Position numbers and translations under genes: made by a program. A stretch of 64,000 nucleotides of DNA, from NCBI GenBank assembly GCA_903882875.1, contig CAIRYQ010000072.1, positions 1-64,000 on the forward strand. The letters are read 5' to 3'. Positions within the stretch are counted from its first letter, which is position 1. Every line of letters begins with the position of its first letter. Source of the stretch: an uncultured Spartobacteria bacterium (GTDB taxonomy: Bacteria; Verrucomicrobiota; Verrucomicrobiia; Chthoniobacterales; Chthoniobacteraceae). Below are positions 34,782-53,362 of this stretch, in pieces. Below the pieces are notes generated by a model. That model saw nothing but the letters and a program-made list of their open reading frames with translations. It did not search any database and was not told where the DNA came from.

Positions 34782-35252
34782 CTACGCGCGGCGGAAGAGG
34801 GCCTGCACGTCCGCGGCATCCATGTCGCAGAGATCGAGGGCGGTCTCGCCGCGCGCGGAGGCGAACTCAAGCCGGCTGGCGAGACTTTTCACGGCGGGCG
34901 CAGCGTAGTATTTCATCGAGCCGACGGTGTGGTCGGTGCCGAAGACGAGGACGAGGATGCAGTTGTCATCAATGTTGATGATGAGCGTGCTGTACGTGTC
35001 GCCCTGCTGATACATGCTGGTGAAGTTGTGCTCGTTCACGAGCTGCGCCATGAACTGCGTGGCGTTGTAGGCGTTCGAGCCGAGGGTCGCGAGCGTCGTG
35101 GTGTCCAACGCTTCCGTGTTACCATATTGCTGGATGAGGTAGCCAGCCTTCTCGACGAGCATCGAGAGGAGCGCCTCGCTCTTTTTGACGAGGTCTCCGA
35201 GCACCTTGTCAATGTAAGCCATGTCTTCCTCGTTCAGTTGTGGAAAGGGCAT
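34782..35252 (-). CDS. Roadblock/LC7 domain protein (MglB-like)
   Basis: 156 residues. The sequence from about 15 to 135 has the alpha-beta pattern of the roadblock/LC7 fold: a long helix LVKKSEALLSMLVEKAGYLI, then ALDTTTLATLGSNAYNATQFMAQLV, YSTLIINIDDNCILVLVFG and a C-terminal helix. MglB proteins of this fold stimulate GTP hydrolysis by MglA. The MglA-like GTPase gene lies 40 bp upstream on the same strand, so this product is likely its GAP or scaffold. It ends 15 bp from the convergent small membrane-protein gene. Confidence 0.8.
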   Translation of the reverse strand: MPFPQLNEEDMAYIDKVLGDLVKKSEALLSMLVEKAGYLIQQYGNTEALDTTTLATLGSNAYNATQFMAQLVNEHNFTSMYQQGDTYSTLIINIDDNCILVLVFGTDHTVGSMKYYAAPAVKSLASRLEFASARGETALDLCDMDAADVQALFRRA

Positions 35253-35292
35253 TGTTTGCGCGGGTTCGGAAGTTTGGAGTCGGGGCGCGGAA

Positions 35293-35892
35293 CTATTTGT
35301 TGAGGTATTTGTGGATGAGCAGTTTTGTGATCATGTTCAGCGTCTCGAAGACGCCCTCACACTTGTTCGCGCTCGCCTCGAAGAACGGGACATGCACCTC
35401 GCGGTTGTTCAGCACGTATTCGAGGTACTCGACCGGGGCGGCATCGGCCATGTCGCGCTTGTTGTACTGGATGACGTAGGGGATGTCGTCGAGCGAGAGG
35501 TTCAGCGACTTCAGGTTGTCCTGCATGTGCTGGAAGGTCTCAATGTTTTCGGGCATCTTGTCGTACTGCGAGTCGGCGACGAAGACGATGCCGTCCACGC
35601 CGCGGAGCACGATCTGGCGCGTCGCATTGTAGATGACCTGGCCGGGCACGGTGAAGAGCGAGAACTTGGACTTGAAGCCCTTGATCGTCGCCGCCTCGAG
35701 CGGGAAGAAATCGAAGAAGAGCGTGCGGTCGCTGCTGGTCGCGAGCGAGGTCATCTTGCTCTTGGCTGTGTCTTCGGGGACTTGGACGTTGGCGTGGACC
35801 TGTTCGAGATTCGTGGTCTTCCCGCTTTTTGCAGGGCCGTAGTACACGATCTTGAGTTGGAGTTCCTTGGTTGCGCGGTTGATGATTGCCAT
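35293..35892 (-). CDS. mglA: MglA-family small Ras-like GTPase
   Basis: 199 residues. G1 loop YYGPAKSGKTTN (17-28) and the switch-II region TVPGQVIYNATRQIVLRGVDGIVFVADSQ, which lacks the Ras DxxG Asp as MglA proteins do, are followed by G4 QYNKRDM and G5-like EASANKCEG. MglA sets cell polarity and controls gliding or type IV pili in myxobacteria and others. Here it is flanked by an MglB-like gene (downstream) and a large roadblock-containing protein gene (12 bp upstream). A role in polarity or pilus control is inferred; a type IV pilin-like gene lies 9 kb away. Confidence 0.92.
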   Translation of the reverse strand: MAIINRATKELQLKIVYYGPAKSGKTTNLEQVHANVQVPEDTAKSKMTSLATSSDRTLFFDFFPLEAATIKGFKSKFSLFTVPGQVIYNATRQIVLRGVDGIVFVADSQYDKMPENIETFQHMQDNLKSLNLSLDDIPYVIQYNKRDMADAAPVEYLEYVLNNREVHVPFFEASANKCEGVFETLNMITKLLIHKYLNK

Positions 35893-35904
35893 GGCTTGGG
35901 GCTG

Positions 35905-37548
35905 TTAAGAATTGAGGGCTGCGAGTTGCGCGGTGAGGGTGCGGAGGCTGTCCGGGAGATTTTCGCCGGCGCGACCGAGTGTTCCGAAATAGATTTTTCC
36001 GCTGCGTGCGATGTGGCAGGGGCCGCTTGCAGTTTGGATGGTAATTTCGCTGGTGGCGCCGAGCAGCATCTCGATGGTGTATTTTTCGAGACGCGCGATG
36101 ATTTGCGGCATGAACGCGGCGAAGGCATCGGCGGAGAATCCGTCCGGCAGGCTCTGCGCGACGACGAGGCCTTCCTCGAGCGCGAGCACCGCTCCTGCGA
36201 CACCGTCGAGGGCGCAGGCACGCCTCACGAGTTCTGCGGGCGTGGAAGCCGAAGCCGCCTGTGGCGTGATCAACGGAACGACGGGAACCACGGCTGCTTC
36301 GGGCGTTGCAGATTCTACGGCCTGCACAGGTTCCACGATCGGCGCGGCAGCAAAGGAGAGAACTGCCGGAGCCGGAGCAGGCTCGGGCACTGGCAGCGTG
36401 GCTTCCGAGGGCGCTGCCTCGGCGGGTGCGGGCGGCGGCGGTTGCAATGCGGCGGACATGGCCTTTGCCATCGGCACCTCCGGCACGGGTTCCTGCACGA
36501 GCTTGAATGCCGACTGCGGCACCGCGCCGAAGAAATCCGGAATGCTGTGGTCAATTTCCGTAGCAGAGCGGCGCTTCGTTGCACCGGTCGCCGCGACAAA
36601 TGCGGGTGCGATGATTTTCAGTGGCAGGACGAGCACGAGATCATCCGCGATCGCGACGGAGCAGGGAATCGGGGGCGTCATCCACTGGCGCACCTGCGAC
36701 CAGGGGAAAACGACCTTGCCTTTCTGGAGGCCGGGGCTGACCGCCTGCTGCGGGATCACCAGCCTCGTGTCGCCGGGCACGCACGAGAGTTCGCTGCGCA
36801 CGCCTTCCGGCCATCCGGCGGCGAGTTCCACAAATGAAATGACCAGTTCACCGCCTCCGCCGACCGGCGCCGGGATCTTCAGTGTGCCGACCGGTGCGGG
36901 TGCCTTGCCGTTGCCGACGGCACCGACGGGTGCGGACGGAGCCGCGATGCCGGGCATCTTCAGCACGCTCGGACGCGCGGGCGGCTCCGGCGAAGTTTCG
37001 GCGGGCTGCGGAATCTCGGCCCGCGCCGGTGCGGGTGCGTCGGACGCGGCGCCGTTCGCCGCCTGACGACCGTTGCCGACTTTGTCGAAAAGTCCGCCGG
37101 CTTCATCCGGGACGTCGTAGCGCCGCTGGTCGCTCCGGCGGCTGAGGCGACGCGGATCGATGTTCTTGAACACCTCGGAGAGCGGAACGTCCACCATCTG
37201 CTTGCCTTCCACGTCCGACTTCCGGAACGTTCCCGCTGGTGCCTGGCGGAGCAGGCTCGCCAGCGACATCCGCACGGCTCCGGTCGGCAGTTGTTTGACG
37301 ATGGAATTCAGCGGCAGCATGATTTTCACCTCGGGCTCCGGCAGCCGCTCAATGATGGTTTTGAGATCCGCCGGCAGCTTGTCGAGAATCGCGCGGAGCG
37401 AGAGCGAGGCCACCTCGATGTCGGAGCCGAGCGGCTTGTCCTTCTCGGCCGGGCGCACACCACTCTGGATCGCAGAAGTCGCGGCCACAGGCTGCACCGC
37501 CTTGTTTTCATCTTTGCCGAAGATACGCTTTAGAAACTTGAGGATCAT
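35905..37548 (-). CDS. Multidomain protein with C-terminal roadblock/LC7 domain
   Basis: 547 residues. About 45-150: a repeat-like module (LRAILDKLPADLKTIIERLP, IMLPLNSIVKQLPTGAVRMSLASLL, MVDVPLSEVFKNIDP). About 150-225: a Pro/Ala-rich linker. About 228-320: a related module (ISFVELAAGWPEGVRSELSCVP, VIPQQAVSPGL, VVFPWSQVRQWM). A second Pro/Ala linker follows, then from about 425 a roadblock/LC7 domain (ELVRRACALDGVAGAVLALEEGLVVAQSLP, QIIARLEKYTIEMLLG, ASGPCHIARSGKIYFGTLG). The whole resembles a scaffold linking other proteins to MglA, encoded 12 bp downstream. No experimentally defined family is recognised for the N-terminal modules. Confidence 0.7.
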   Translation of the reverse strand: MILKFLKRIFGKDENKAVQPVAATSAIQSGVRPAEKDKPLGSDIEVASLSLRAILDKLPADLKTIIERLPEPEVKIMLPLNSIVKQLPTGAVRMSLASLLRQAPAGTFRKSDVEGKQMVDVPLSEVFKNIDPRRLSRRSDQRRYDVPDEAGGLFDKVGNGRQAANGAASDAPAPARAEIPQPAETSPEPPARPSVLKMPGIAAPSAPVGAVGNGKAPAPVGTLKIPAPVGGGGELVISFVELAAGWPEGVRSELSCVPGDTRLVIPQQAVSPGLQKGKVVFPWSQVRQWMTPPIPCSVAIADDLVLVLPLKIIAPAFVAATGATKRRSATEIDHSIPDFFGAVPQSAFKLVQEPVPEVPMAKAMSAALQPPPPAPAEAAPSEATLPVPEPAPAPAVLSFAAAPIVEPVQAVESATPEAAVVPVVPLITPQAASASTPAELVRRACALDGVAGAVLALEEGLVVAQSLPDGFSADAFAAFMPQIIARLEKYTIEMLLGATSEITIQTASGPCHIARSGKIYFGTLGRAGENLPDSLRTLTAQLAALNS

Positions 37549-37661
37549 GGTCGGGGTTTCCGCTGTGGGGCAAGCACAGACGATGCCAGCCGCCGCTATG
37601 ACCTCGGGAAATTTTTTTTGCCACGTCCGGCGTGCGCCTTGCTAGGCGATAATGATGACCT

Positions 37662-38765
37662 GTGAGTCGCAGCAGACAGCAGGCGCAAACCTCAGCCCAA
37701 ATCAGCCCAATGGCAGCACGCCAGAAAATCCTCATCCTCGACGACGATCAGGACCTGCTCGAGATTTATCAGGAAATCCTCGCACGGCTCCCCAGCCAGC
37801 CGGAAATCCGCACCGCAACCACCGGGCAGGACGCCATCGCGATTCTCGAAAATGAGCCATTCGTGCTCCTGCTCGTGGATCTGAACATGCCGCAGATGGA
37901 CGGCTTTCAGGTTCTCGCCGTTGTCCGCCGGCGTTTCCCGGCACTGCGCACGGTCGTGATGACCGGCGCGTCGGAGGCCGACCTTCGCGCACGCGCCTAC
38001 CGCGTCGGCGTGGATCTCTACATGGAAAAGCCGAAGACCGGCCGGGAGATCATTTTCTTTGTGGACTGCATCGAGAGCCTGCTCGAACGCGAGAGCCAGG
38101 GCGGCTTCCGCGGCGTGCAGAGCAAGACGCTGCTCGACATCATCCAGATGGAATGCCTCACGCAGAATTCCTGTGTGCTGAAAATCTCCAGCGCCGTGGG
38201 CGAGGGGCGCATCTGGATCCAGAAGGGCGAGATCATGGACGCTGCCGTCGAGGACAAGGTCGGCAAGGCCGCGATCACCGAGATGATCGGCTGGAAGGCC
38301 GGCAACTTTGAAATCCTTCCCGCGGGCCTGCCGAGGCCCCGCACCATCTTCATCGGCTACGAGAGCCTGCTCATGGAGACGGCGCAGAGCATGGACGAGG
38401 CCGACGAGGCAGACGCCGCGGAAAGGCAGACGCCGGAATCGCTCCTCAGCACATTCGCACGTTTCACGGGCGTGCAATTCGCGATGGCGGTGGATCTCGG
38501 TGAATCCAAAAAATACGAGCACTGGGGCTGCGACGATCCCGCGCCGCTCGCCGTGTGGACGCACCAGACTGCGCACGCCTTCAAGCAGCTCGGCACGCAG
38601 TTGAAAGTCGGCGAGCTGCTCGACATTGTTGCATTTGGATCGGTGCGCAACATCGCCGTCCTCTCCGCTGACGAGGAGGTGCTCGGCGTCGGCATCACCC
38701 GCGCGCTCGCCGCGCCGCAAATCCGCGAAACTCTCACCCAGATCGAATCCAAATGGGCATCCTGA
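37662..38765 (+). CDS. Response regulator with DUF4388/PATAN-like and roadblock-like C-terminal region
   Basis: 367 residues from a GTG at 37662; an ATG at 37710 (MAARQKILILDDDQDL) is equally possible and starts nearer the conserved domain. About 20-140: receiver domain with acidic cluster LDDDQD, phospho-acceptor Asp in LLLVDLNMPQMDGFQ, Thr/Ser in VVMTGAS and Lys in MEKPKT. About 145-245: DUF4388-type domain (GGFRGVQSKTLLDIIQMECLTQNSCVLKI, GRIWIQKGEIMDAAVEDKVG). The rest (about 265-367) looks like a roadblock/LC7 fold. It has no DNA-binding domain, so output is by protein contact, probably to the MglA/MglB set encoded divergently 113 bp away. The next gene overlaps it by 13 bp. Confidence 0.85.
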   Translation: MSRSRQQAQTSAQISPMAARQKILILDDDQDLLEIYQEILARLPSQPEIRTATTGQDAIAILENEPFVLLLVDLNMPQMDGFQVLAVVRRRFPALRTVVMTGASEADLRARAYRVGVDLYMEKPKTGREIIFFVDCIESLLERESQGGFRGVQSKTLLDIIQMECLTQNSCVLKISSAVGEGRIWIQKGEIMDAAVEDKVGKAAITEMIGWKAGNFEILPAGLPRPRTIFIGYESLLMETAQSMDEADEADAAERQTPESLLSTFARFTGVQFAMAVDLGESKKYEHWGCDDPAPLAVWTHQTAHAFKQLGTQLKVGELLDIVAFGSVRNIAVLSADEEVLGVGITRALAAPQIRETLTQIESKWAS

Positions 38766-39475
38766 ATCCATTCGTCCGCACCGTCATCCCCATCGAGGCG
38801 CAGCGCATTCCGTCCGGTTGCTTTGCCGTCCATCGCGACGGCGGGATCGTCTGCAGCACGCTGCCGCAGTGGTTCCCCGTGCAGAGCGCGGTGGAAATCG
38901 GGCGTGCCGTCATCGAGGCATTCCGCCTCGGCATCGAGATGAACGCCGCGATCAACGACATCTCCGTGCGCTACACCGGCATGACCATTTCCGCGCGCGA
39001 CCTCCGCGGCGGGGCGCTCATCTTTCTCATCCCGAACGAATCCCGAATTTCACGCAAGCCCGTGCCCACAAACATGAACTACAAAAACCTCGAAGACTTC
39101 ATTCTCCACCTCGAGACGCACATCGAATGCTGGAAGCAGTTCAACTCGTACGTCACCCTCGCGCGCGACAAAAAGTTCACCGCCGAGGACGACGCGCAGT
39201 TCCTCGATCTCAAGAGCCTCATCACGCAGGGCACCGAGATCATCCACGCCAGCGAGGTCAAGGGCGGCCTGCGCAAGGAGGACGTGCTCTCGCTCTTCGC
39301 CAGCGCGCCGTCGCTCCGCTACCTCGCGGAAATGAGCGACACGATCCCTGCCGTCGAGAGCCAGTGGCACCGCATCTACCTCCACCTGCAAAGCCTGCTC
39401 GGTCAGCTCAAGGTCCAGCAAAACAAGGCGGCGGAAAAACCGTCAGCAGGCTGGAGCCTCTTCGGAAAAAGGTAG
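38753..39475 (+). CDS. Conserved hypothetical protein coupled to the response regulator
   Basis: 240 residues; the start overlaps the response-regulator gene by 13 bp. Residues 1-95 (VHRDGGIVCSTLPQWFPVQSAVEIGRAVIEAFRLG, then ISVRYTGMTISARDLRGGALIFLIP) have the beta-alpha-beta spacing of a roadblock/LC7 domain. Residues 110-235 are helical (LEDFILHLETHIECWKQFNSYV, DLKSLITQGTEIIHAS), ending in a basic tail. No enzyme motif. With the response regulator it likely forms an input or adaptor arm of the MglA-type switch next door. Confidence 0.6.
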   Translation: MGILNPFVRTVIPIEAQRIPSGCFAVHRDGGIVCSTLPQWFPVQSAVEIGRAVIEAFRLGIEMNAAINDISVRYTGMTISARDLRGGALIFLIPNESRISRKPVPTNMNYKNLEDFILHLETHIECWKQFNSYVTLARDKKFTAEDDAQFLDLKSLITQGTEIIHASEVKGGLRKEDVLSLFASAPSLRYLAEMSDTIPAVESQWHRIYLHLQSLLGQLKVQQNKAAEKPSAGWSLFGKR

Positions 39476-39502: not shown

Positions 39503-39982
39503 TCACCTCGAAAATTTCGCACGCAGCGCATCCACCACGCACGGCGGGACGAACGCCGCGACATCGCCGCCGAGCCGCGCGACCTCCTTTACCAGCCGCG
39601 AACTCACGTAGCTGTATTCCTCCTTCGGCATGAGGAAGAGCGTCTCCAGCGTGGGCTCGAGTCGGCGGTTCATCAGCGCCATCTGGAACTCGAACTCGAA
39701 GTCGCTCACCGCGCGCAGCCCGCGGATGATCGCGGTCGCCTTCTCGATGCGCGCGAACTCGACGAGCAGCCCGTTGAAATGTGTGACGCGCACATTCGGC
39801 AGCGGCGAGACGGTCTCTTTCAGCAGCGCGACGCGCTCCTCGGTGGTGAAAAGCCCCGTCTTTTCCGAGTTCACGGCAATCGCGAGCACGACCTGATCGA
39901 AGACCTTCGCCGCTCGCGTGAGCACATCAAGGTGCCCATTGGTGATCGGATCGAAGGAGCCTGCGTAGATGGCGCGTTTCAC
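39503..39982 (-). CDS. coaD: Pantetheine-phosphate adenylyltransferase
   Basis: 159 residues, GTG start at 39982, matching the normal length of about 160 for CoaD (phosphopantetheine + ATP to dephospho-CoA). The N-terminal KRAIYAGSFDPITNGHLDVL contains the T/HxGH nucleotidyltransferase motif. RGLRAVSDFEFEFQMALMNR and YSYVSSRLVKEVARLGGDV are CoaD-specific. A longer start at 40018 is possible but adds 12 non-conserved residues. It is convergent with the roadblock-type gene (27 bp apart). The 205 bp between it and the next gene hold nothing recognised. Confidence 0.95.
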   Translation of the reverse strand: MKRAIYAGSFDPITNGHLDVLTRAAKVFDQVVLAIAVNSEKTGLFTTEERVALLKETVSPLPNVRVTHFNGLLVEFARIEKATAIIRGLRAVSDFEFEFQMALMNRRLEPTLETLFLMPKEEYSYVSSRLVKEVARLGGDVAAFVPPCVVDALRAKFSR

Positions 39983-40187
39983 GGCTTGCAGAGTGCAGGG
40001 GAGGGTGGCGCGGGGCAAAAGGATTTCGCCTTCAATTCAGAAGCTCGGAATCCAGCGGAACGTAGAAACAGTGCGTTCTTCAACCCGACAGAAAGCCTGC
40101 AAGTCGCGCATCTCTGGAGCCGCACGTCATGCGCGCCGTTTATGGAAGCTGAAGGGACGGCTGCGGTTTAGCTAATACCACTCCGAT

Positions 40188-41033
40188 TTACGGGCCGCCG
40201 TTCAACACGCCTGGAGTAGTGCCACGGAAGGGTGTTGGTGCCTTTGGCGTCGTCGTCGGAGTGGTCGGTTGGGTTGGCTGGGTGGGGATCTGCAAGTTGT
40301 CGGTGCGGGGGATGTCGGAGATGAAAGAGGGCTTGCCGGTACTGGTGAATGGGATGTTGGACTGGCCGAAGAACTGCCGGATCTGGGTGAGGATTGCTGC
40401 GACGATCTGCCGCTCGTCGAGCTTGACGCCCCATTTTCCGGTGAGGAGCGGCGAGGTCCGCACGAGGAGGTTCAAGTTGATGAAAAAGGGCTGCGGAATC
40501 TCGGTGGCATCAATCGCGAGAATGACTTCCTGGCCGGCGGTCACGAGCTTCCGGCGCTTCCATTTGCCGAGCTTCGGCTTGAGGGAGCAACTGCCCTCGA
40601 TGACGATCAGCTTGATGAACTTCGGCCCGACCTCCAGAAGGATCGTGGTGCCGGTGATCGCGGCGGTTACGGCGGCGGTCTCGATTTTTGCGCCGCCGAG
40701 GCCCTTGGGAACCTGAAGCATGATGACGCCTTTCGAGAGCGTCATGTCCCGAGTGCCTTCGGTGAAGCTGAAGTTTGAATTCGCTCCGAGGCGCGTGATG
40801 GTCTGGTCGCTGAAGAGCAGCTCCGTGCGGGAATCTATCCCGGTGCCCACGGCATAGCCGGGCCGCACGGTTTCGTTCAGGGATGCCCGGTGAGGGGCCT
40901 TGCCTTCCTCGGCCGCTTTCACGTCGTTGACGATGCGCGTGATTTTCGCGTCCTTGAGCGGAGCGGCCCCGGCGGGGGCGATGGCGGCGGCAAAGAATGC
41001 CGCGAGGATGGAAGATAGGATGTGCCTTTTCAT
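40188..41033 (-). CDS. FecR domain protein, exported
   Basis: 281 residues with signal peptide (cleavage near ApaGA-A, residue 23). The FecR fold is seen in VRPGYAVGTGIDSRTELLFSDQTITRLGANSNFSF, then MTLSKGVIMLQVPKG, AAVTAAITGTTILLEV and LIVIEGSCSLKP. The C-terminal 50 residues are a Pro/Thr-rich tail (TQPTTPTTTPKAPTPF). Proteins like this do not act on TonB receptors but occur with outer-membrane barrels and CHASE2 cyclases as periplasmic sensors or organisers. The barrel gene is 6 bp upstream and the CHASE2 cyclase gene is divergent, so the three probably form one module. Confidence 0.85.
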   Translation of the reverse strand: MKRHILSSILAAFFAAAIAPAGAAPLKDAKITRIVNDVKAAEEGKAPHRASLNETVRPGYAVGTGIDSRTELLFSDQTITRLGANSNFSFTEGTRDMTLSKGVIMLQVPKGLGGAKIETAAVTAAITGTTILLEVGPKFIKLIVIEGSCSLKPKLGKWKRRKLVTAGQEVILAIDATEIPQPFFINLNLLVRTSPLLTGKWGVKLDERQIVAAILTQIRQFFGQSNIPFTSTGKPSFISDIPRTDNLQIPTQPTQPTTPTTTPKAPTPFRGTTPGVLNGGP

Positions 41034-41039
41034 GGATGA

Positions 41040-41984
41040 CTAAAACTGGTATTTGAAATTGATGCCGCCGCCGGTGGTCGCGGCGTCATAGTTGGAGGCC
41101 GAGCGGTTCGAGCGATCCAGAACATAGGTGAACGAGGCGTTCACGGAGAACTGTTTGTTAAAGTGGTAAGTAAGGGCGGCGGTGACGGTGCCGTTGAAAT
41201 CCTTGCGTCCGCCCTGCCGGTAGTCAAAGAGCGCGAACCGCGTGTAGAGATCGGCATCGAGGGCCTTCGTGAGGTGGGTCTGCGCGCCGAGGTAGAGGCT
41301 GTGCTCGTTGCGCTGCGCGGCGAACTGCTGCGCCCAGCCGAAAATGCTGGAGTAGCCGATGTAAATGAAATTCCGGCCCCGAAGCGCGAAGGTCTTCTGT
41401 GCGCCGACGGTGAGCGTGTGTGCGGTGTAAAGGTCGCGGCTGGAGCGGCTGTTGGTGTCCCACTCGAAGTTATAGCGACCGTAGAGGGTGATGTCCCACA
41501 GGTCGGTGAGATTATAAAACAGGCCGGCACCCGCATTGAGGCTGTTGAAATTCTGCGCGGTGAGACTGTCGTAGCGGAAGAATCCCTCGCGGATGACGGT
41601 CTCGAAGCTGAGGGTGTCCGAGAGCTTGGACTCGTAGCGCGCACCGACCTCGCCGAAGAAATAGCCGTCGGCCTGCTTGTTGTTGCGCGCGAGGGTCACG
41701 TTGTTCGTGTAGTATTCCTCTGCCGTCGCGAAGAGTCGCCAAGGGAGGACGGGCTCGCCGAGCGGGACGATGAATTGCGAGCCGAGATCCGAATCGCCGG
41801 GAGTCGCCGGGGCGCGGTTGCTCCGGTCGTCCGGCGGCTGGCCGAACATCTCGATATTCGTGCCGACGGAGCGGACGCGCAGCCGTGCCTGCTCCGCCTC
41901 CGAGGCGGGAGCCTGCGCCCATGCCTTGGCGCCGAGCAGCGAGCACGCGAGGAAGACGAACGTGAGGGAGTGCTTTTGATTCAC
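41040..41984 (-). CDS. Outer-membrane beta-barrel protein
   Basis: 314 residues from a GTG at 41984 that gives a clean signal peptide (KHSLTFVFLACSLLGAKAWA, cleavage before Gln24). After about 70 residues of loop the chain shows alternating amphipathic strands ending in Tyr/Phe (VGARYESKLSDTLSFETVI, LTVGAQKTFALRGRNFIYIGYSSIF, FSVNASFTYVLDRSNRS) and a terminal Phe (INFKYQF), typical of an outer-membrane barrel of about 10-12 strands. Longer starts exist upstream but would run into the cyclase promoter region. It is cotranscribed with the FecR gene 6 bp downstream. Confidence 0.78.
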   Translation of the reverse strand: MNQKHSLTFVFLACSLLGAKAWAQAPASEAEQARLRVRSVGTNIEMFGQPPDDRSNRAPATPGDSDLGSQFIVPLGEPVLPWRLFATAEEYYTNNVTLARNNKQADGYFFGEVGARYESKLSDTLSFETVIREGFFRYDSLTAQNFNSLNAGAGLFYNLTDLWDITLYGRYNFEWDTNSRSSRDLYTAHTLTVGAQKTFALRGRNFIYIGYSSIFGWAQQFAAQRNEHSLYLGAQTHLTKALDADLYTRFALFDYRQGGRKDFNGTVTAALTYHFNKQFSVNASFTYVLDRSNRSASNYDAATTGGGINFKYQF

Positions 41985-42043
41985 GGTGCGGAGAATCAAT
42001 AGATTGCGCTGGAGTCCAACACGGAACAGCATCGCGCTACGAA

Positions 42044-44173
42044 GTGCAATCCACTGTGACCCCGGCCACCAAACTCGCCAAATCCGCATTCCGCCGATAC
42101 AGCCGCAATGCGCTGATCGCGATCTGCGGTGCCTGCACGGTGGTGGTGATCGCGCTGCACGTCCTGTTTCCGCAATTCAGGAACCTCGAATTCTCTGCCG
42201 AAGACTTTCTCACACGGCTTGGCAAGCCCGCGCCTGTGAGCCCGGAACTGGTCTTCCTTGCGATCGATCAGGCGTCCACCAAGCTCGATCATATTGGGTT
42301 CGATGAGATCGAGTCAACGCCCGCGCTGAAGCTCATGGAACGCGGTTTCCCATACCCGCGCAGCGTCTATCCGCTGATCCTCGACCGGGTGTTCGGCGCG
42401 GGCGCAAAGGTGGTCGTCATTGACCTGCTGTTCACGAATGAGCGCGACGAGGATGTCGAGTTCCGCGCCGCTCTTGATAAGTATCGTGACCGCGTGGTGA
42501 TCGGGAGCAATTTCGACTCCGGCGATCGTATGAAGGGCAGCATGGATACGCACGTCCTGCCGTCGTCGTCGCTCATCACCCCGAAAAAACCGATGGATGA
42601 CCGTGTGGCCTACGTGAACTTCTGGCCGGACACGGACGGCGTCATCCGTAGATCCCATTTCCGGGTGACGGCGGCTGAGGTCTTCAATAGCAGGCCGGAG
42701 CAGGACGAGGAAGTCTTCGATTCCCTTGCGGCGAAGGTCTTGAAAAAAAGCGGCCACGCCGATCTGGTACCGCGCGGAAACGAGCCGCGGCGCATTCGTT
42801 ATCCAAACCGGGGTGCGATCTTTCTGCCAAACTCGGTCTGCAACATTTTCGAGGCAGCGCGATGGAACTCTCCTGAATATGGCAGCGGGGACTTTCTCCG
42901 CGGTAAAATCGTGATGCTCGGCCCGGAGGGGGCATTCACGCATGATGAGCATCCCACGCCGATTGGCAAAATCGCCGGCCCGCAGGTACATCTCAGCGCG
43001 ATGAACGCGGCGCTCCAACGGACCTTTCTGCACGAGACGTCCATCATCATGGTCTATGCGCTCATCGCCGTTGCAGGCGCGCTGGCGTGGGGGCTTTGTC
43101 ATTGGTTTCACGGACCGCTTGCGCGTCTCGGTTCGCTCGTTGTCGCGAATGTTGCGTGGCTCGTCGTCGCGCTCCTGCTTTACAACCACGCGAACCTCAT
43201 CATCCCGATGGTTGCGCCGCTGATGGCGCTGACATTGAGCGGCGTCGGTTGCCTCGGGTGGGATTTTTTCCTAGAGCGGCTCGAGCGCGCCCGCGTCCGC
43301 TCCGTGCTCGACAAGTATGTCTCGAAAAATGTCGCCGAACTGGTGCTGTCGGAAGGCGACGAATTCGCCGGCGCGCTAAAAGGGCAGCGCAGGATCGTGA
43401 CGGTGCTTTTTTCCGACATCCGCGGATTCACGGCGATGACGGAGGAGGCGGTGCCCGAGGAGTTCATCGCGCAGCTCAACGAGTATTTCTTCGAGATGGT
43501 CGAGGCGGTGCTCGCGGAGGGCGGCACGCTGCAAAATTTCATTGGCGACGCGGTGCTCGCCGCGTGGGGCGACACGCGCAAGCTCGACCCTGCGACGGGC
43601 GCCTACGAGGCCGTGCGGACGGCGCTGCGCATGAGCGGTGCGCTGAAAAAACTGAACGAACGATGGGCCAATCGGGAAGGGCGCCGCAAGCTGGGCATCG
43701 GCATCGGCATCAAGCAGGGCGAGGCGATTCTCGGCAGCGTGGGGCATCCGCAGCGGATGAATTTCACCGCGCTGGGCGACACCGTGAACACCGCCGCGCG
43801 GCTTGAGGGCGCGACGAAGCACCTGAAGACCGAGATTCTCGTGGAGGAGACCATTGAGGAGCTCACGCGCGATCGTTTCCATTTCCGTCGTGTGGACTCG
43901 CTGAAGCTGAAGGGAAAGTCCAAGGCCACCGCGGTCTTCACCGTGCTCGGTGAAAAGCCCGAGCCTGTGCCGCCGTGGCTCGCGGAATATCACCGCGCGG
44001 TAGAACTCTATCACGCGCGCCTCTTCCGCGAGGCCGGTGAAATTTTCCGAAAGCTCGGCGAAGAGATTGAGGACGATGCGCTCTGCGCGATGTACGCCAG
44101 GCGTTGCGAACTCTATGCCGAAACGCCGCCGTCCGCAGATTGGGACGGGTCTTTCACGATGACGGAGAAGTAG
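42044..44173 (+). CDS. CHASE2-domain adenylate/guanylate cyclase
   Basis: 709 residues, GTG start. One N-terminal membrane helix (about 25-43), a periplasmic CHASE2 domain (about 50-325; VFLAIDQASTKLDHIG, YPRSVYPLILDRVFGAGAKV, VDLLFTNERDEDVEFRAAL), three membrane helices (about 333-410), then a class III cyclase domain (about 445-640). The metal Asp residues lie in VLFSDIRGFTAMTEE and FIGDAVLAAWG, and the substrate region is GIGIKQGEAILGSVGHPQRMNFTALGDTVN. A short helical tail follows. It senses a periplasmic signal and should make cAMP or cGMP. Its start lies 59 bp from that of the divergent barrel/FecR unit, so the promoters share one region. Confidence 0.93.
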   Translation: MQSTVTPATKLAKSAFRRYSRNALIAICGACTVVVIALHVLFPQFRNLEFSAEDFLTRLGKPAPVSPELVFLAIDQASTKLDHIGFDEIESTPALKLMERGFPYPRSVYPLILDRVFGAGAKVVVIDLLFTNERDEDVEFRAALDKYRDRVVIGSNFDSGDRMKGSMDTHVLPSSSLITPKKPMDDRVAYVNFWPDTDGVIRRSHFRVTAAEVFNSRPEQDEEVFDSLAAKVLKKSGHADLVPRGNEPRRIRYPNRGAIFLPNSVCNIFEAARWNSPEYGSGDFLRGKIVMLGPEGAFTHDEHPTPIGKIAGPQVHLSAMNAALQRTFLHETSIIMVYALIAVAGALAWGLCHWFHGPLARLGSLVVANVAWLVVALLLYNHANLIIPMVAPLMALTLSGVGCLGWDFFLERLERARVRSVLDKYVSKNVAELVLSEGDEFAGALKGQRRIVTVLFSDIRGFTAMTEEAVPEEFIAQLNEYFFEMVEAVLAEGGTLQNFIGDAVLAAWGDTRKLDPATGAYEAVRTALRMSGALKKLNERWANREGRRKLGIGIGIKQGEAILGSVGHPQRMNFTALGDTVNTAARLEGATKHLKTEILVEETIEELTRDRFHFRRVDSLKLKGKSKATAVFTVLGEKPEPVPPWLAEYHRAVELYHARLFREAGEIFRKLGEEIEDDALCAMYARRCELYAETPPSADWDGSFTMTEK

Positions 44174-44331
44174 CCGCAGGACCGAAACACCAGCGCGAGT
44201 TCGGCGAGGATGGGATCTTCGGGAGTCATGGCTGGGAGCGGGCAAAAGATGGGGGAAGAAGGCCTGCTTATCCGATTGCTTGACACAATGGCGTCTTCCT
44301 CTGTAGGCATAGGTTGAACATGGTTGTTCCC

Positions 44332-44365
44332 GCGCCGTTGCTGCCGGGGCGCATGGCCTTTTTTT
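44332..44365 (+). terminator. Possible intrinsic terminator behind the cyclase gene
   Basis: GCGCC (44332-44336) pairs with GGCGC (44348-44352), followed after ATGGCC by seven T (44359-44365). The spacing between stem and T-run is longer than ideal. It may end cyclase transcripts or a small RNA started near 44280. Confidence 0.45.
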
Positions 44366-44411
44366 GTCGGTGATCCGGTGTCTTGCGCCACCGGCTTGCC
44401 TGAAAAGCAAA

Positions 44412-44441
44412 CACCCGGCCATCCTTTCGGGTGGCCGGGTG
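44412..44441 (-). terminator. Intrinsic terminator of the pilin gene
   Basis: A perfect 10-bp stem CACCCGGCCA / TGGCCGGGTG (44412-44421 with 44432-44441) with a 10-base loop lies 34 bp after the pilin stop. On the minus strand it is followed by a T-rich run (TTTGCTTTT), the form of a rho-independent terminator. Confidence 0.8.
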
Positions 44442-44475
44442 GTGAGAGATAAGAACCGCTCAGGCGGTCCGGAGG

Positions 44476-44877
44476 TTACTTATAGGGCGACCAGAAGCCG
44501 GCCGGGGCCACGTCGGACAGGGCCGCGAAGGTGGTGCCGTTGACTTTCGGAGGCGTGTCAACAGTGAACGTGCCGAAGGACGAGCCGAGGATGTCAGCGT
44601 TGCCGCTGGAGTAGAGACGGGTGCCAGTCTTGATATAGTTCTGGAGATCCGCGAAGACGGGGTTCATGCCACTGAGTTTGGCATTTTCGATGGCATACTG
44701 GTCCACCGCGGAGTCAAGGATGCGGAGATCCTCGAGGACCTGGGTAGCCTGCGAGCGTTTGCGGCTGCGCAGGAAGTTCGGGACGGCGATGGCCGCGAGC
44801 AGTGCGATGATCGCGACGACGATCATGATTTCCACGAGCGTGAAGCCCGCGTGTTTGGTGTTCAGTTTGCGAAGCAT
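44476..44877 (-). CDS. Type IV pilin-like / pseudopilin protein
   Basis: 133 residues. Short basic leader MLRKLNTKHAG followed by the prepilin cleavage site G|FTLVEIMIVVAIIALLAAIAVPNFL, with Phe+1 and Glu+5. The globular part is small (about 100 residues): QATQVLEDLRILDSAVDQYAIEN helix, then GTRLYSSGNADILGSSFG and a Trp-containing tail. This compact form is common in verrucomicrobial pseudopilins. The ATG at 44877 is fixed by the leader. No prepilin peptidase or assembly ATPase is nearby, so it is an isolated minor pilin or pseudopilin gene. Confidence 0.88.
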   Translation of the reverse strand: MLRKLNTKHAGFTLVEIMIVVAIIALLAAIAVPNFLRSRKRSQATQVLEDLRILDSAVDQYAIENAKLSGMNPVFADLQNYIKTGTRLYSSGNADILGSSFGTFTVDTPPKVNGTTFAALSDVAPAGFWSPYK

Positions 44878-45304
44878 GGTATTATGATTTCTAGTTTGTT
44901 TGTTGTTTCGTCCCCGCCGCGGATTGCGGTTAGGACGAGATGGGTTTAAGCATTCGTGATGCCCCACGAGCGTTTGCAGGCTACTATGTTGCAATCGTAA
45001 TGTGAATGATACCACGCCTCTCCTTAACAGGTTTGCGTAACTCTCCAGCCATCCGCGCCAAACCCGGAAGCCTCCGCGCACAACCTCCCATCATCGGCAC
45101 CAATGCCGGAATCTTCTACGCCTATGCGGTTTGTTGACCAAGCGCCTTTGACAATAGCCCAGCGATTCATCGCTGGGTTCGCGGAGTGATGCGGACAAAG
45201 TCCCGCGAGGGACGAAAGAACGCTCTGCCGTCCATGGCGGGGCTATGTCCGCTCCGGCATGTCGAGGCGGCAGAGTCCCAGCCTGCGGCGTTTCCGCTCG
45301 GCGC
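44878..45304. other. 427 bp without a gene: pilin upstream region and REP-like hairpin
   Basis: Contains the upstream region of the pilin gene and, at 45158-45177, an almost palindromic hairpin CCCAGCGA-TTCA-TCGCTGGG. Beyond it lie further GC-rich short repeats (around 45195-45300) of the type scattered in intergenic regions of Verrucomicrobiota and planctomycetes. Minus-strand open frames here overlap the next gene and have no signal or motif. Confidence 0.6.
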
Positions 45305-47738: not shown

Positions 47739-47828
47739 TGGCGGAAGGGGTGGGATTCGAACCCACGGTGCCTTTTACAGCACGCTCGATTTCGAGTCGA
47801 GTGCCTTTAACCACTCAGCCACCCTTCC
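47739..47828 (-). tRNA. tRNA-Ser (anticodon CGA)
   Basis: Read on the minus strand, 90 bases including an encoded CCA. Acceptor stem GGAAGGG pairs with CCCTTCC. The anticodon stem CTCGA/TCGAG holds the loop CTCGAAA with anticodon CGA. A long class II variable arm (GTGC/GCAC stem) and the T-arm GTGGG-TTCGAAT-CCCAC follow. The gene is intact. A decayed integrase lies about 60 bp beyond its 5' end. Confidence 0.97.
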
Positions 47829-47888
47829 AGTTACTTTCGTTCAACGACTTACAGAGTTTTCGGGAAATGCGAGTTGTTTTTTTTGCGG

Positions 47889-48283
47889 TCTGTTTATTTG
47901 GTCTTCGTGCAAGCACTGCAAAACGCAATGCAAACGAAGTCCGCAGAAGGCGAGACAGTTTTGAGTCCCGCGCAAGTTCAATTTCTCTGCAGGCATAAAA
48001 ACGGGCGCTACTATGTCCGCATGTATGCCGGAGGCAAGGGAAATTGGTCCAGCCTCAAACAAAATTTCTCTCCGTCGCCAAGAACCGGATGTAGGAGCAC
48101 GTCGAAGCCGTCGAGCGTCGCCGCACCACCGGCAATTCCGTCGAGGCTGTCGGCAAGTTCACCTTCGGTGAGCCCATCCACTCCTATCGGGAGCAGTTCG
48201 CCGCATCCGACATTCGCCCGAACGCGTAGGCGTATCGCGAATGCACGTGACGCGGTACGCCGGAAACTCGCGCAGGAATGAGT
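47889..48283 (+). pseudogene. Degraded tyrosine recombinase (integrase) N-terminal part
   Basis: Starts in one frame (QALQNAMQTKSAEGETVL, then HKNGRYYVRMYAGGKGNWSSLK), shifts frame near 48057 and continues as KFLSVAKNRM-stop-EHVEAVERRRTTGNSVEAVGKF, TFGEPIHSYREQFAASDIRPNA-stop, AYRECT-stop. The order of an arm-binding domain (K.GRYYVR.YAGGK..W.SLK) followed by a SAM-like core-binding region matches phage-type integrases. At least one frameshift and three in-frame stops are present, and the catalytic domain is absent. The remnant sits next to a tRNA gene, the usual neighbourhood of integrases. Confidence 0.75.
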
Positions 48284-48501
48284 GAGATTTTGCATGGTTG
48301 CATTTTCTTTTCTTTTGAGTTCAGGACCATCGCATCAATAATGACCGCGGTGCCTGATGCGCCGCGCATGTTGCAAAACTGCGCGACGTTTCGCTGTGCC
48401 GCTCCCGCCTTGCTGTGTCATGCAACCGGACAGGCATGGAAAATGCGATTGAGGTTCTTCGCCACCGGCATTCAGTCACCACAAAACCTCACATCACACC
48501 C

Positions 48502-48903
48502 ATGCTGCACCCCATTAAAACCGCACTCACACTTCTCGTCGGACTCACATTCATCGGAAGCGCCCTTGCCGGTGAAGACGGACGCATCAGCGACGGCACA
48601 CCCAGCAGGAAGAACCGAAGCGCCGGACCCGCAGGGGCCTGGTATCGTTCCAATCGCGCCCGAAACGAAGTCATCGTCAAAAATAACACATCCGACTACA
48701 TGACGTTCTTCGTCTATTCTGGCCACCAGCGTGGAACGGTGGATGTTCGCCAGATGATTCGCATCGGTGCCCCGGTCTATACCGTCATCGTTGCACCCCA
48801 TCAGCAGAGCTACCTCGATCAGCGGGACAGATACTACTGGGTTTACGCAAAGCCCGGCCACTGCGGCATTGACCTCCAGAGGAACCGGATATCAGGGTCA
48901 TAG
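48502..48903 (+). CDS. Exported hypothetical protein
   Basis: 133 residues. Signal peptide MLHPIKTALTLLVGLTFIGSALA, cleaved before GEDG. The mature chain is basic and Tyr/Arg-rich: NRARNEVIVKNNTSDYMTFFVYSGHQRG, VYTVIVAPHQQSYLDQRDRYYWVYAKPG. No catalytic motif or family is recognised. A longer frame from 48415 would place the signal peptide internally, so 48502 is preferred. It lies in a loosely packed stretch between a decayed integrase and the defence island. Confidence 0.55.
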   Translation: MLHPIKTALTLLVGLTFIGSALAGEDGRISDGTPSRKNRSAGPAGAWYRSNRARNEVIVKNNTSDYMTFFVYSGHQRGTVDVRQMIRIGAPVYTVIVAPHQQSYLDQRDRYYWVYAKPGHCGIDLQRNRISGS

Positions 48904-49255
48904 TCCGGACGGCGAATCTGAGATAGCGTCCGTCCTCCAACACCGAGGATGCACGCTGCACGCCGTGACAACGGCATACTGCCTGTAGGGCAAGCTGACT
49001 CCACGAAAACTGTATTTCTTGTCTGGGGAGCGTCAGGAACTCATTCCGGCGACTCATCGCCACCTTGATTGAATGCACCTCGCGGAAAGTGAATGTGCAA
49101 AACTGTAGTCTGCCATTGGCCAGGAGCATCTTTCGGGCAGTGAACTCGAATGAAGGGCGGCGTTTCAGCGCGTCTGAATTGTTCTTTAGGTATTCGCTAT
49201 CTTCCTCTGCATTCTTTCTTCTCCAACGAAATCAACTTCATCACCTTTTACCGAG
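48904..49255. other. 352 bp without a supported gene
   Basis: Open frames on both strands are short and lack signals or motifs. No stable stem with a T-run was found. Confidence 0.5.
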
Positions 49256-49645
49256 TTGATTGCCCGCTCCGTAGGATCCAGATGCCATCGTGTATGGAGA
49301 ATCCACGGCTTGAGCCGTTCATCACTCAACTTCGGAGTCAAAACGCTCGGCGTCGTTGTCGTGGGTGCTGTGTTGATGCTTCCGTTCATTTTTCTGCGCG
49401 TGCGGTTTGAAGCATGGATTGAGTACAAGATTCGTGAGTTAATAAGTGCGCGTCACGCCAAGCGATACGAGGGCATGAGCGGTGAACAGGCTGTGGATGT
49501 GCCGCATTGCCCGAATTGCAACCATTCAATGATTCTGCGAACGGCGCGAAGGGGCGTGAACGCAGGCGCAAAATTCTGGGGGTGCAACTCTGGGGGCAAC
49601 TCGTTTCCGAAATGCAAAGGCACGCGACAGTTGGCGCGGCAGTAG
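49256..49645 (+). CDS. Membrane-anchored topoisomerase-type zinc-ribbon protein
   Basis: Up to 129 residues. One hydrophobic helix (VVVVGAVLMLPFIFL, about 33-47) is followed by a basic helix and a C-terminal C4 zinc ribbon, CPNCNHSMILRTARRG, then FWGCNS...FPKCKGTR. This is the zf-C4_Topoisom type found in the tail of topoisomerase I and in small nuclease or regulatory proteins. The true start is uncertain: the ATG at 49256 gives 32 residues before the helix, and no clear ribosome-binding site decides. The zinc ribbon may bind nucleic acid at the membrane. It is the last gene left of the island boundary. Confidence 0.6.
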   Translation: MIARSVGSRCHRVWRIHGLSRSSLNFGVKTLGVVVVGAVLMLPFIFLRVRFEAWIEYKIRELISARHAKRYEGMSGEQAVDVPHCPNCNHSMILRTARRGVNAGAKFWGCNSGGNSFPKCKGTRQLARQ

Positions 49646-49751
49646 TGCTTCCCTTGCCTCGCTCACTCGTGCCTCTGCAGAGAGCAGGTTACATTTTGAG
49701 CTGCAATGTTTGTCTGCCTCATAAATCCCTCTATATTAGTGTTTAGAGAGG

Positions 49752-49780
49752 GGAGCGGGTGAAGGGAATCGAACCCTCGT
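49752..49780 (-). other. Attachment site: 3' end of a tRNA-Gly gene (island left boundary)
   Basis: On the minus strand the sequence reads as the 3' end of tRNA-Gly: T-arm GAGGG-TTCGATT-CCCTT (49778-49762), acceptor strand CACCCGC (49761-49755), discriminator T and CC, with the final A of CCA changed. The D-arm and anticodon arm are absent. A tyrosine integrase gene begins 98 bp to the right. This is the usual structure of an att site left by integration into a tRNA 3' end; by orientation the intact tRNA-Gly should lie at the far right end of the element, beyond the window. Confidence 0.75.
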
Positions 49781-49878
49781 TTCGGGTATAGTGGTTTTGA
49801 GTGGTAGTAAGTGGTTGATTTTACTCTGTTGCGTGCGAAGCTGGTGCAGTAACTTACTGCACTAACTGCACTCGAATT

Positions 49879-50913
49879 ATGGCATCCATCTACCGCAAAG
49901 ACAAATCCCCTTTCTGGTTCATTCAGTTCATCGACGTGGACGGAAAACGGCGCAACAAATCGACCGGCCTGCGGGCGGACAATCCCGGCGAAACCGTCAA
50001 GGCGCGGACGCTGCGCGCACAAATGGAAGCCAAGGAACTGAACCGCACTGCCGGTGAAGTGAGCGGCGGCGGCTGGGAAAGCTGGGTGCCGCAATACCTG
50101 CAACGGCACTGCGAGAGTCCGCGCACCTTGGAACGCTACAGCACCAACTGGACGTGGATTGCGTTCTGGCTGCAAGAAAAGCACTACCATTCGCCACGGG
50201 CCATCACCTACCGCAATGCGCTCGAATACATCGACTGGCGCACGAACTACAAAAAAAAGACCGGCAAGACGGTCGGGCGCAACACTGCCATCATGGAATT
50301 GAAGCTCCTCGCCATGATTATGGGGGAAGCGGTGCGGCTCGGCCATGCCGACGCCAATCCGCTGGTGAGCCTCAAGCTGCGCCGCGACAAGTCCGCGAAA
50401 AAGCCGGAACTGACGGATGCGGAAATCAGTGAAATCCGCGAGGCGCTGAAAAGCGAGCCGGAATGGATGCAGGTTGCTTTCGATATTGCGCTGCATACGG
50501 GCTGCCGCCTGCGCGAGACGCGTCTTCCGCTGAACTGCATCGATTTTGCGGAAAACAAAATCACGTTTCCCTCGCCGAAAGGCGGCGAGGATCGGGCGTT
50601 CTCCGTTCCGATGCCGACGGCACTGCGGCCGCTTTTTGAAAGCGTCCGCAAGTCGAAGAAAAAATTTACGGTGGAATTTCCGTTTCAACCGTCGCGCCGC
50701 TGGCAGCAATTCTTCATCAAAATGAAAAAGCCGCATCTGTGCTTTCACTGCCTGCGCGTCACCTACGTCAACCGGCTGCGCCGCGCCGGGGTTCCCCGCG
50801 AAGCGGCCATGCGGCTCGTCAATCATTCCTCGGATTTGATTCATCAAATCTACCAGCGGGAAAAAGTCGAAGACGTGGCGCAATGGCGCGACGCGGTGCA
50901 GTTCGTCGCGTAA
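49879..50913 (+). CDS. int: Tyrosine recombinase / integrase
   Basis: 344 residues. N-terminal arm-type region (MASIYRKDKSPFWFIQFID, DGKRRNKSTGLRAD), SAM-like core-binding domain (about 65-165), and catalytic domain with Arg210 (HTGCRLRET), His290-x2-Arg293 (FHCLRVTYV), His316 (NHSS) and the nucleophile Tyr325 (HQIYQR). All catalytic residues are present, so the enzyme should be active. It lies beside the tRNA-Gly att site and is presumably the recombinase that moved the island filling the rest of the window. Confidence 0.95.
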   Translation: MASIYRKDKSPFWFIQFIDVDGKRRNKSTGLRADNPGETVKARTLRAQMEAKELNRTAGEVSGGGWESWVPQYLQRHCESPRTLERYSTNWTWIAFWLQEKHYHSPRAITYRNALEYIDWRTNYKKKTGKTVGRNTAIMELKLLAMIMGEAVRLGHADANPLVSLKLRRDKSAKKPELTDAEISEIREALKSEPEWMQVAFDIALHTGCRLRETRLPLNCIDFAENKITFPSPKGGEDRAFSVPMPTALRPLFESVRKSKKKFTVEFPFQPSRRWQQFFIKMKKPHLCFHCLRVTYVNRLRRAGVPREAAMRLVNHSSDLIHQIYQREKVEDVAQWRDAVQFVA

Positions 50914-50917
50914 AATT

Positions 50918-51409
50918 TCAGCGTCCAGCTTTTTTGGCTGCCGCCTCGATCCATGCACCCATGTTGGCGTAACCGTTGTCGTTCACCCAATCATAGCAGG
51001 TATAGCTGTTGCTGAAATAAACGTCTTTGCCGTTGGCATCTTTTCCGATTACGCCGAACGAATTAGAACCTTTGGCGCTCGTGTTTCCGTCTTTGTCCTT
51101 ACAATTGTGAATATAGATGCCCAGCATTCCGTTCCCTTTTGCATAACTCTTTTGCAATTCGTATTTTACATAATCACGCTCACTTGTTTGCGAACCGATC
51201 AGCACAACCGTGACTGAGGTTCCTGAAAGTTGCGCGTCTATCCATTTTTTAATCGCGGCTTCACCCTCTTTTTCGACCTTTTCAAAGTCTGCCGCGTCAA
51301 CGAAACCAGCAGCTTCATGATCGTCCTTTGTGACCCAACTGTTTCTTACCTGATTCGCTCTCCAAACATCATTTTTGTAGTGAAAACTAAAGAATGCTTT
51401 GCGTGCCAT
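50918..51409 (-). CDS. ThsB-like TIR-domain protein (DUF1863)
   Basis: 163 residues. MARKAFFSFHYKNDVWRANQVRNSWVTKDD is the hallmark start of the ThsB/DUF1863 family. VTVVLIGSQTSERDYVKYELQKSYAKGN carries the predicted catalytic Glu84, and GIYIHNCKDKDGNTSAKGSNSF follows. In Thoeris systems ThsB senses phage and converts NAD+ into a signal that activates ThsA. No ThsA gene is adjacent. The gene is convergent with the integrase (4 bp between stops) and is followed upstream by ardC on the same strand after 471 bp. It is probably part of the island's TIR set or an orphan sensor. Confidence 0.88.
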   Translation of the reverse strand: MARKAFFSFHYKNDVWRANQVRNSWVTKDDHEAAGFVDAADFEKVEKEGEAAIKKWIDAQLSGTSVTVVLIGSQTSERDYVKYELQKSYAKGNGMLGIYIHNCKDKDGNTSAKGSNSFGVIGKDANGKDVYFSNSYTCYDWVNDNGYANMGAWIEAAAKKAGR

Positions 51410-51640
51410 ATAATTTCTCCGGATTTTTTTGTTAGGGGTTTTATGTTAGTATGAACGGAGAGGAAGTGAAACGATAAAAGCGCGAGGATGCAACTCAAAA
51501 AGGGAGTCCATGAGGGCTTTGCCCTCTGGCGCGGGTCTGGGCTGGCGTGAAGCCCAGAATGGTGCCGGGGTTTGGGGACGGCACGAGTCCCCAATGACGC
51601 AAAAGCGGCTGCCCCGGAATGGGCAGCCGCTGCATTGTCG
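51410..51640. other. 231-bp region with a row of four hairpins
   Basis: No gene is supported. Four stems follow one another: GAGGGC-TTT-GCCCTC (51512-51526), CTGGGCT-GGCGTGA-AGCCCAG (51537-51557), TGGGGAC-GGCACGA-GTCCCCA (51573-51593) and an 11-bp stem at 51605-51632. The two middle stems differ in sequence but keep length and share the loop GGCRYGA. Confidence 0.7.
51605..51632 (-). terminator. Strong hairpin behind the ardC operon
   Basis: AGCGGCTGCCC pairs perfectly with GGGCAGCCGCT around the six-base loop CGGAAT (plus-strand reading), directly behind the stop of the small minus-strand ORF. On the minus strand it is followed by a short T-run (TTTTG). Probable transcript end. Confidence 0.65.
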
Positions 51641-51877
51641 TCAACGTGGCAGCGCTTCCATGTGAAGAAAAAGCCGCCGGTCTCGCGCCATGTTGCACGA
51701 AAGGGAAACGGCACGGCGGTAGCTCAAGCATCGGTAAACCGTGCTCGTGGCCTTTTGCTCGGTCGTCACGATAACGGCAACATTCCAGACGGGATGCGCC
51801 TTCCCCCTGCGCCGTGTGCGCGAGGGGTGCGGACCGGTCATGTGAACGATTGCGGGCGGTAGCGGGTTCGCGTTCAT
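51641..51877 (-). CDS. Small protein downstream of ardC
   Basis: 78 residues, starting 3 bp after the ardC stop with a good ribosome-binding site (GGAGG eight bases before ATG, overlapping the end of ardC) and ending just before a strong hairpin. The sequence (GPHPSRTRRRGKAHPVWNVAVIVTTEQKATS, then YRCLSYRRAVSLSCNMARDRRLFLHMEALPR) is basic, with two Cys and no known motif. Position and ribosome-binding site argue for a real gene cotranscribed with ardC, possibly an accessory antirestriction or plasmid-type protein. Confidence 0.5.
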   Translation of the reverse strand: MNANPLPPAIVHMTGPHPSRTRRRGKAHPVWNVAVIVTTEQKATSTVYRCLSYRRAVSLSCNMARDRRLFLHMEALPR

Positions 51878-51880
51878 CGG

Positions 51881-52768: not shown

Positions 52769-53050
52769 AAGTGTTTCCTGTGTTGATGTTTGCGTTTTTG
52801 CGAAAGCTCTGGGCTTTCTAAAAAACATGGTGACAAAAAGCCGAAGGGTATGAGGCGGATAGTCAAGGGAGGCTCCGACGGAGGGTTCCCAAAAGTCCCG
52901 CAATGGACGCTGCGAAGACGCGCCATGAGGACAATTTTGGGATACCGTTGGATGCCCTTTACGAGACGCCGCCCGTAGGCATCTCGGAGCCGCGAAAGCG
53001 AGGAACGAGCGAAAGCAGCGGAGTATTCCGCGTCAGCGGGTAATCTTTCT

Positions 53051-53291: not shown

Positions 53292-53306
53292 AGCCTCAAG
53301 AAGCTC

Positions 53307-53335: not shown

Positions 53336-53362
53336 TCAAATCAAAGCCTACGGAAAAACATT

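Follow-up and report, generated by a model that had tools for sequence, protein, structure and literature searches.

What role does an MglA-type GTPase play when its gene is clustered not only with that of an MglB-like partner but also with genes for three further proteins that seem to carry roadblock domains, one of them a response regulator? The question is raised by a locus in a 64,000 nucleotide stretch of DNA from an uncultured Spartobacteria bacterium (GCA_903882875.1, contig CAIRYQ010000072.1, positions 1 to 64,000, forward strand), to which we refer as the window. The original prediction had seen here a two-component input into a polarity GTPase with several possible GAPs or adaptors. 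Our own reading, which we put at a probability of roughly 0.6, is that the block is a conserved module for polarity and pilus control, built on a Group-1 MglA switch, addressed by a phospho-signal and acting on the motors of type IV pili (T4P).

The cluster and its MglA-MglB pair

The five open reading frames of the cluster were confirmed at window positions 34782-39475 (Table 1). Three are transcribed from the minus strand in the order C, mglA, mglB, with short gaps between them, while D and E run divergently on the plus strand and overlap by 13 nt. The start of D is most likely the ATG at 37710 rather than an upstream GTG, since the full-length orthologs begin there. The gap between C and D is probably a control region common to both genes; no promoter match, repeat or inverted repeat was found within it. 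A chance origin of the five-gene set is ruled out by its conservation across many genomes.

Table 1. Positions of the genes and gene parts of the cluster in the window
Feature	Position	Strand	Basis
mglB-like, 156 aa roadblock protein	34782..35252	-	Robl_LC7, Myxococcus MglB and family profile matches
mglA, 199 aa, Group-1-type small GTPase by motif	35293..35892	-	Matches to solved MglAs; motifs
Protein C, 547 aa, C-terminal roadblock	35905..37548	-	Pfam; ortholog alignment
Divergent intergenic region C/D	37549..37709	.	Gene orientation; sequence read
Protein D, 351 aa, receiver-PATAN(DUF4388)-putative roadblock-type	37710..38765	+	Domain matches, model, ortholog starts
Protein E, 240 aa, E1-E2 fusion	38753..39475	+	ORF, model, separate genes in relatives
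E1 part, aa 1-107, predicted roadblock without helix 1	38753..39073	+	AlphaFold model, Foldseek and VIA, profile match
E2 part, aa 108-240, all-helical	39074..39475	+	Model, separate-gene comparison, alignment

Downstream of E, in window 39503-45081, translations read by eye show a CoaD-like gene first, followed by genes for FecR-like, outer-membrane-like, CHASE2-adenylate cyclase-like and pseudopilin-like proteins, none of which is kept beside the cluster in the relatives compared. Directly past a tRNA-Ser(CGA) gene, the GC content drops from about 0.60-0.65 to 0.50-0.58, and this low-GC part (window 47739-64000) could be an integrated element or genomic island.

The GTPase matches solved MglAs over its whole length, its best solved relatives being those of Thermus (7.7e-60) and Myxococcus (5e-56). 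The P-loop, R56, TVPGQ and NKxD are kept in all 19 aligned MglA sequences, R56-T57 and T81-V-P-G-Q85 being invariant, and R56, next to the G2 threonine T57, is the intrinsic arginine finger. By published criteria, Group 1 MglAs have an arginine beside the G2 threonine together with TVPGQ in G3, and Groups 2-5 have threonine and GTPGQ (PMC4316618). With R56-T57 and TVPGQ, the window's MglA is thus classified, on its motifs, as Group 1 type. The window's genus also has a second, divergent MglA paralog (L164-L166 and L169; G000 C27, G001 C189, G007 C54 and G008 C21), which adjoins PilB-like and TPR-MshEN genes in G001, G007 and G008, and whose three inspected sequences have neither the G2 arginine nor the catalytic glutamine; possibly it is a degenerate GTPase.

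Its companion has the two marks of an MglB, a roadblock/LC7 domain (Robl_LC7, 5.8e-6) and a gene adjacent to mglA. It matches Myxococcus MglB at 7.5e-11, or at 9e-25 with the family profile, which aligns through the C-terminal helix. The acidic/LF motif of that helix, the GEF-active region of Myxococcus MglB (PMC11016934), is kept. Asn37 and Arg98, GAP residues in Myxococcus, are replaced by Ala and Asn in the alignment; their contribution to GAP activity is just partial, and not every MglB is defined by them (PMC11016934). An MglA and an MglB-like protein, as first proposed, are therefore both present.

Roadblock domains outside MglB

Protein C was predicted to end in a roadblock, and it does: Robl_LC7 matches its C-terminus (about aa 440-520) in 16/16 orthologs (E up to 0.1, best 4.1e-7), the window's copy scoring slightly below the Pfam cut-off (8.1e-5; 22.7 bits vs 23), and the region matches a solved archaeal roadblock at 2.5e-6. 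Ahead of the domain are Pro/Ala-rich linkers (38-43% Pro+Ala vs 27% overall) and copies of a VPLxxI-like motif, and the protein begins with a short, basic/hydrophobic, MLKFLKKLF-like stretch. The VPLxxI-like repeats lie at window 37130-37420 and 36570-36850, about aa 45-140 and 235-325; the first of these regions also matches other proteins in relatives without MglA, one of them a 2494-aa open frame (G016).

Protein D, described beforehand as a receiver-DUF4388-roadblock-like protein, has a receiver at aa 7-114 (1.1e-20), a PATAN/DUF4388 domain at 140-231 (1.3e-14) and a putative roadblock-type C-terminus at 245-350. Residues D11, D12, D57, T85 and K107, invariant in 17/17 D orthologs, provide the acidic pair, phospho-acceptor Asp, Thr/Ser and Lys of a response regulator, making the proposed two-component input likely. 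In the model, the C-terminus follows the roadblock order of helix, two strands, helix, three strands, helix, with pLDDT mostly 60-85. Robl_LC7 matches there weakly, in 3 of 17 members (best 0.0037) and in 4 of 30 (best 0.011), and the best solved match, again weak (0.0013), is an archaeal roadblock; Foldseek and VIA returned receivers only, their lists being filled by the receiver domain. A model of moderate confidence and matches of about 1e-3 thus hint at a roadblock-type domain in this position. The D gene of G005 (L119 3924-5000) is broken by an in-frame TAG, which could be an assembly error or mark a broken gene.

In the AlphaFold model of protein E, the N-terminal part, E1, is a roadblock without helix 1, preceded by a conserved MGxLxxF N-terminus. 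Nearly all top Foldseek matches of this part are roadblock proteins, VIA superimposes it on Myxococcus MglB with Z 10.6 and an rmsd of 2.1 over 76 residues, and its sequence profile matches roadblock at 2.1e-4. The roadblock-like N-terminus that had been proposed for the 240-residue protein is, on these fold and profile matches, a predicted roadblock fold. To judge from their sequence, the short N-termini of C and E1 look suited to membrane contact. No match came from hhalign when the roadblock regions were aligned against one another and against MglB; because it also missed C against MglB, where Pfam does find the domain, we regard this comparison as uninformative and do not count it against the assignments.

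The remainder of E, E2, is all-helical, with the motifs ECWKQFN and GQLKV. Its matches are weak and helical (AAR2 at 0.0016; four-helix bundles with Z up to 12.5), and we do not take them as kinship, the helical arrangement being a common one. In the 61 loci outside the window's family that have both parts, separate genes without exception encode E1 (mostly about 100 aa) and E2 (about 130 aa), often with an overlap of a few bases; fused, the two occur in Chthoniobacteraceae only. The start codon of E2 maps exactly to Met108 of fused E, a residue invariant in 18/18 family members. From this separation and this coincidence of start and Met108, we conclude that the 240-aa E arose, specifically in this lineage, when a roadblock protein that elsewhere stands alone was fused with a helical partner. 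We reject a sequencing or frame error, given the separate genes in all 61 loci and the single open frame in the window's family. The fusion suggests that E1 and E2 are in physical contact, and predicts a partnership of this kind.

The cluster therefore has three roadblock domains and a putative fourth, those of MglB and C recognised by sequence, that of the E N-terminus by predicted fold and sequence, and the putative one of the D C-terminus by predicted topology and weak sequence matches. LC7 similarity of the extra proteins had been set beforehand as the point on which the original prediction was to stand or fall, and roadblock-type domains were found in C and E and, with less certainty, in D. 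Since MglB and these proteins share a fold class, it might be supposed that the latter are additional GAPs for MglA. We regard this as very improbable: E1 is without helix 1 of the fold, the domain sits at the C-terminal end of larger proteins in C and D, a GAP residue was identified in none of the extra roadblock proteins, and the best studied extra roadblock, MglC, is an adaptor that leaves MglB GAP activity unaltered (PMC10329633). Of the 'several possible GAPs or adaptors', the GAPs are thus not supported, and a role as adaptor or scaffold suits the extra proteins better.

Conservation of the set and its pilus neighbours

In a scan of genome contigs, the closest relatives came from records titled Chthoniobacteraceae, Spartobacteria and Verrucomicrobiota, including Chthoniobacter flavus Ellin428, a cultured carrier of the module. 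Among the 40 genomes sampled within the window's family, the full five-gene set was found in 18, with the genes of some spread over more than one contig; the other 22 are without MglB, D, E and any close MglA. A scan with E added 63 loci from outside the family, with Limisphaerales, Pedosphaera or subdivision 3 in the titles of many of them; there, E is present as two genes, one for the stand-alone roadblock and one for the helical protein. Counting as usable those loci with about 4.9 kb or more ahead of D, or with the whole set visible, the rest ending at contig ends, we see the full arrangement, mglB-mglA-C on one strand and D-E diverging from it on the other, in 43 of 47. Co-occurrence in other Verrucomicrobiota had been named as a check of the original prediction, and the set is indeed present there and held together.

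In a class-wide sample of 384 genomes, 66 have E2, 97 have MglA (cut-off E 1e-30) and 54 have the two together. The Fisher p of 2e-27 makes this association look stronger than it is, since genomes that share ancestry are no independent samples, and more weight falls on the gene order. Where E2 and MglA lie on the same contig, 30 of 32 pairs are no more than 6 kb apart.

There is another possible explanation of this arrangement, namely that D, E1 and E2 form a separate PATAN signalling unit, which has come to lie divergent from mglB-mglA-C by happenstance and makes no direct contact with the GTPase. In keeping with this, D-E lies away from mglA in four of the 47 usable loci (L194, L197, L215 and L221), a D'-E2' pair is apart from mglA in the genomes examined of the sister family f8, and seven f89 genomes (G455, G458, G463, G468, G473, G478 and G482) have a distant E2 relative and no MglA match at 1e-30. 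Nevertheless we think it quite unlikely, given the very strong co-occurrence and tight linkage of E2 and MglA, the joint presence or absence of the genes in the window's family, and the roadblock-type domains of E1 and, putatively, of D. Roadblock is the usual partner fold of MglA-type GTPases. Going by the f89 genomes, E2 may still have a role apart from MglA, and the 12 of the 66 genomes with E2 that have no close MglA match, with the loci in which D-E is away from mglA, indicate that D-E may act alone too.

The connection of the module with pili comes from its neighbours in relatives. A PilB-like ATPase gene lies directly before C-mglA-mglB in 9/9 loci with enough DNA from sister families within the taxonomic order, preceded by a detected TPR-MshEN gene in eight of them; the PilB-like proteins score slightly below the curated cut-offs of both PilB and GspE. 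At seven loci outside the window's family, the gene that comes after mglB, in the same orientation, codes for an ATPase of the PilT family, except that at one of them, L248, no mglB was detected between pilT and mglA. All four of these seven PilT genes that were tested exceed the curated PilT cut-off. In the window, neither pilB nor pilT adjoins the cluster.

PilT-family genes are found in nearly all relatives, with or without MglA. We therefore reject the pilus genes as a strict partner of MglA, and pili do not need the MglA module. A second MglA in family f5 is flanked by a PATAN-FGE protein, in which PATAN is fused to an FGE-sulfatase-type domain, and by a pilin-like N_methyl gene, which is followed by a PilT-like ATPase (L172 in G052, L173 in G059 and L174 in G067).

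It may be asked whether the MglA/MglB/C switch is real and its output some other polar machine, for envelope growth, secretion or adhesion, the pilB and pilT neighbours reflecting an old gene order. The window, with no pilus motor gene beside its cluster, would agree with this, as would the occurrence of PilT-family genes in relatives without MglA, and the PilB-like scores below both cut-offs make secretion possible. Yet motors of two kinds, one PilB-like and the other PilT, are found next to C-mglA-mglB or mglB in distinct lineages, the further mglA paralog of f5 sits with a pilin-like gene and a PilT-like ATPase, and PATAN regulators are tied to pili in cyanobacteria (PMC7690835). We consider such an output unlikely.

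Proposed function and comparison with known systems

The most likely role of the cluster, argued from analogy with RomR/MglC/MglB of Myxococcus and the PATAN regulators of cyanobacteria, would be phospho-signalled control of type IV pilus motors, rather than the supply of additional GAPs. Among the partners of MglA are effectors that recruit PilB (PMC11580455), and the cyanobacterial PATAN regulator PixE has been proposed to bind PilB1 (PMC7690835). In the scheme that we propose, MglA would cycle between GTP and GDP under MglB, while a histidine kinase encoded away from the cluster would phosphorylate the receiver of D. With its PATAN domain and its putative roadblock, D might then alter pairing among the roadblock proteins MglB, C and E1, and the changed pairing would move or free MglB and so determine where or when MglA is in its GTP form. 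In that form, and probably scaffolded by C, MglA would act on PilB and PilT. The phosphorylation of D, the hetero-assembly of roadblocks, the direction of control and the pilus output are all parts that we infer. A partner kinase was sought beside E, where the 1733-aa neighbour in G007 matches mainly HEAT-like alphaRep chains and no kinase.

A more elaborate form of this scheme, which we put forward tentatively and would not expect to hold in full, is a layered assembly of four roadblocks (MglB, C, D and E1), gated by receiver phosphorylation, that steers the Group-1 MglA between the motors of T4P extension and retraction. If true, Verrucomicrobiota would share a conserved assembly that parallels, in bacteria, the Ragulator layout. 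Ragulator/Rag likewise stacks several roadblock proteins around Ras-like GTPases and offers a model of hetero-pairing, but it is eukaryotic and lysosomal and has no phospho-receiver, so the likeness is an analogy only.

One close parallel is RomR/RomX-MglC-MglB-MglA of Myxococcus xanthus, which also has a Group-1 MglA with MglB, input from a receiver protein, at least one extra roadblock and T4P among its outputs. There, MglC, a second and stand-alone roadblock protein, connects the response regulator RomR with MglB (PMC10329633). RomR ends in a helical MglC-binding region, whereas D has PATAN and putative roadblock-type domains in that place; lacking the C-terminal helix that binds a separate MglC, D resembles RomR in functional logic only. 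To our knowledge, Myxococcus has no counterparts of C, E2 or the fused E1-E2. Furthermore, Myxococcus mglA is not near its partner genes (PMC4316618), while that of the window is clustered. Hence the statement that the arrangement is not standard in myxobacteria is correct for the gene cluster and not for its logic, given RomR-MglC-MglB (PMC10329633) and PATAN near mglA/mglB (PMC4316618). The fusion in E, the neighbouring pilB and pilT genes of relatives and the wide distribution of the block are findings that the original prediction did not contain.

The cyanobacterial regulators PixE, PixG and LsiR share with D a receiver, a PATAN domain and a proposed tie to T4P motors (PixE with PilB1); D differs in that its receiver is in first position, its C-terminus has an additional, candidate roadblock-type domain, and its gene is clustered with mglA. 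The actinobacterial conservon (CvnABCD) similarly combines a kinase-linked MglA-type GTPase with a roadblock protein in a conserved locus, but its GTPase is of Group 2, a membrane kinase is encoded in the locus, and there is no response regulator.

Occasional PATAN genes near mglA/mglB, in Groups 1 and 5, have been reported before (PMC4316618; Makarova 2006, Wuichet and Sogaard-Andersen 2014), and the survey in PMC4316618 placed Verrucomicrobia in Group 5 only, in contrast to the Group-1-type MglA found here in a fixed five- or six-gene set conserved across Verrucomicrobiota. Both the PATAN-mglA/mglB linkage (PMC4316618) and, in Myxococcus, the input to MglA from a receiver with an extra roadblock are thus already known. 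As far as the searched literature shows, the new elements are the fixed five/six-gene Verrucomicrobiota module, the receiver-PATAN-roadblock architecture predicted for D, the E1-E2 fusion and the recurrent association with genes of two pilus motors. With this module, the range of the best studied polarity GTPase of bacteria would come to include, in the form of a fixed set of genes, an abundant and little-studied phylum of soil and freshwater.
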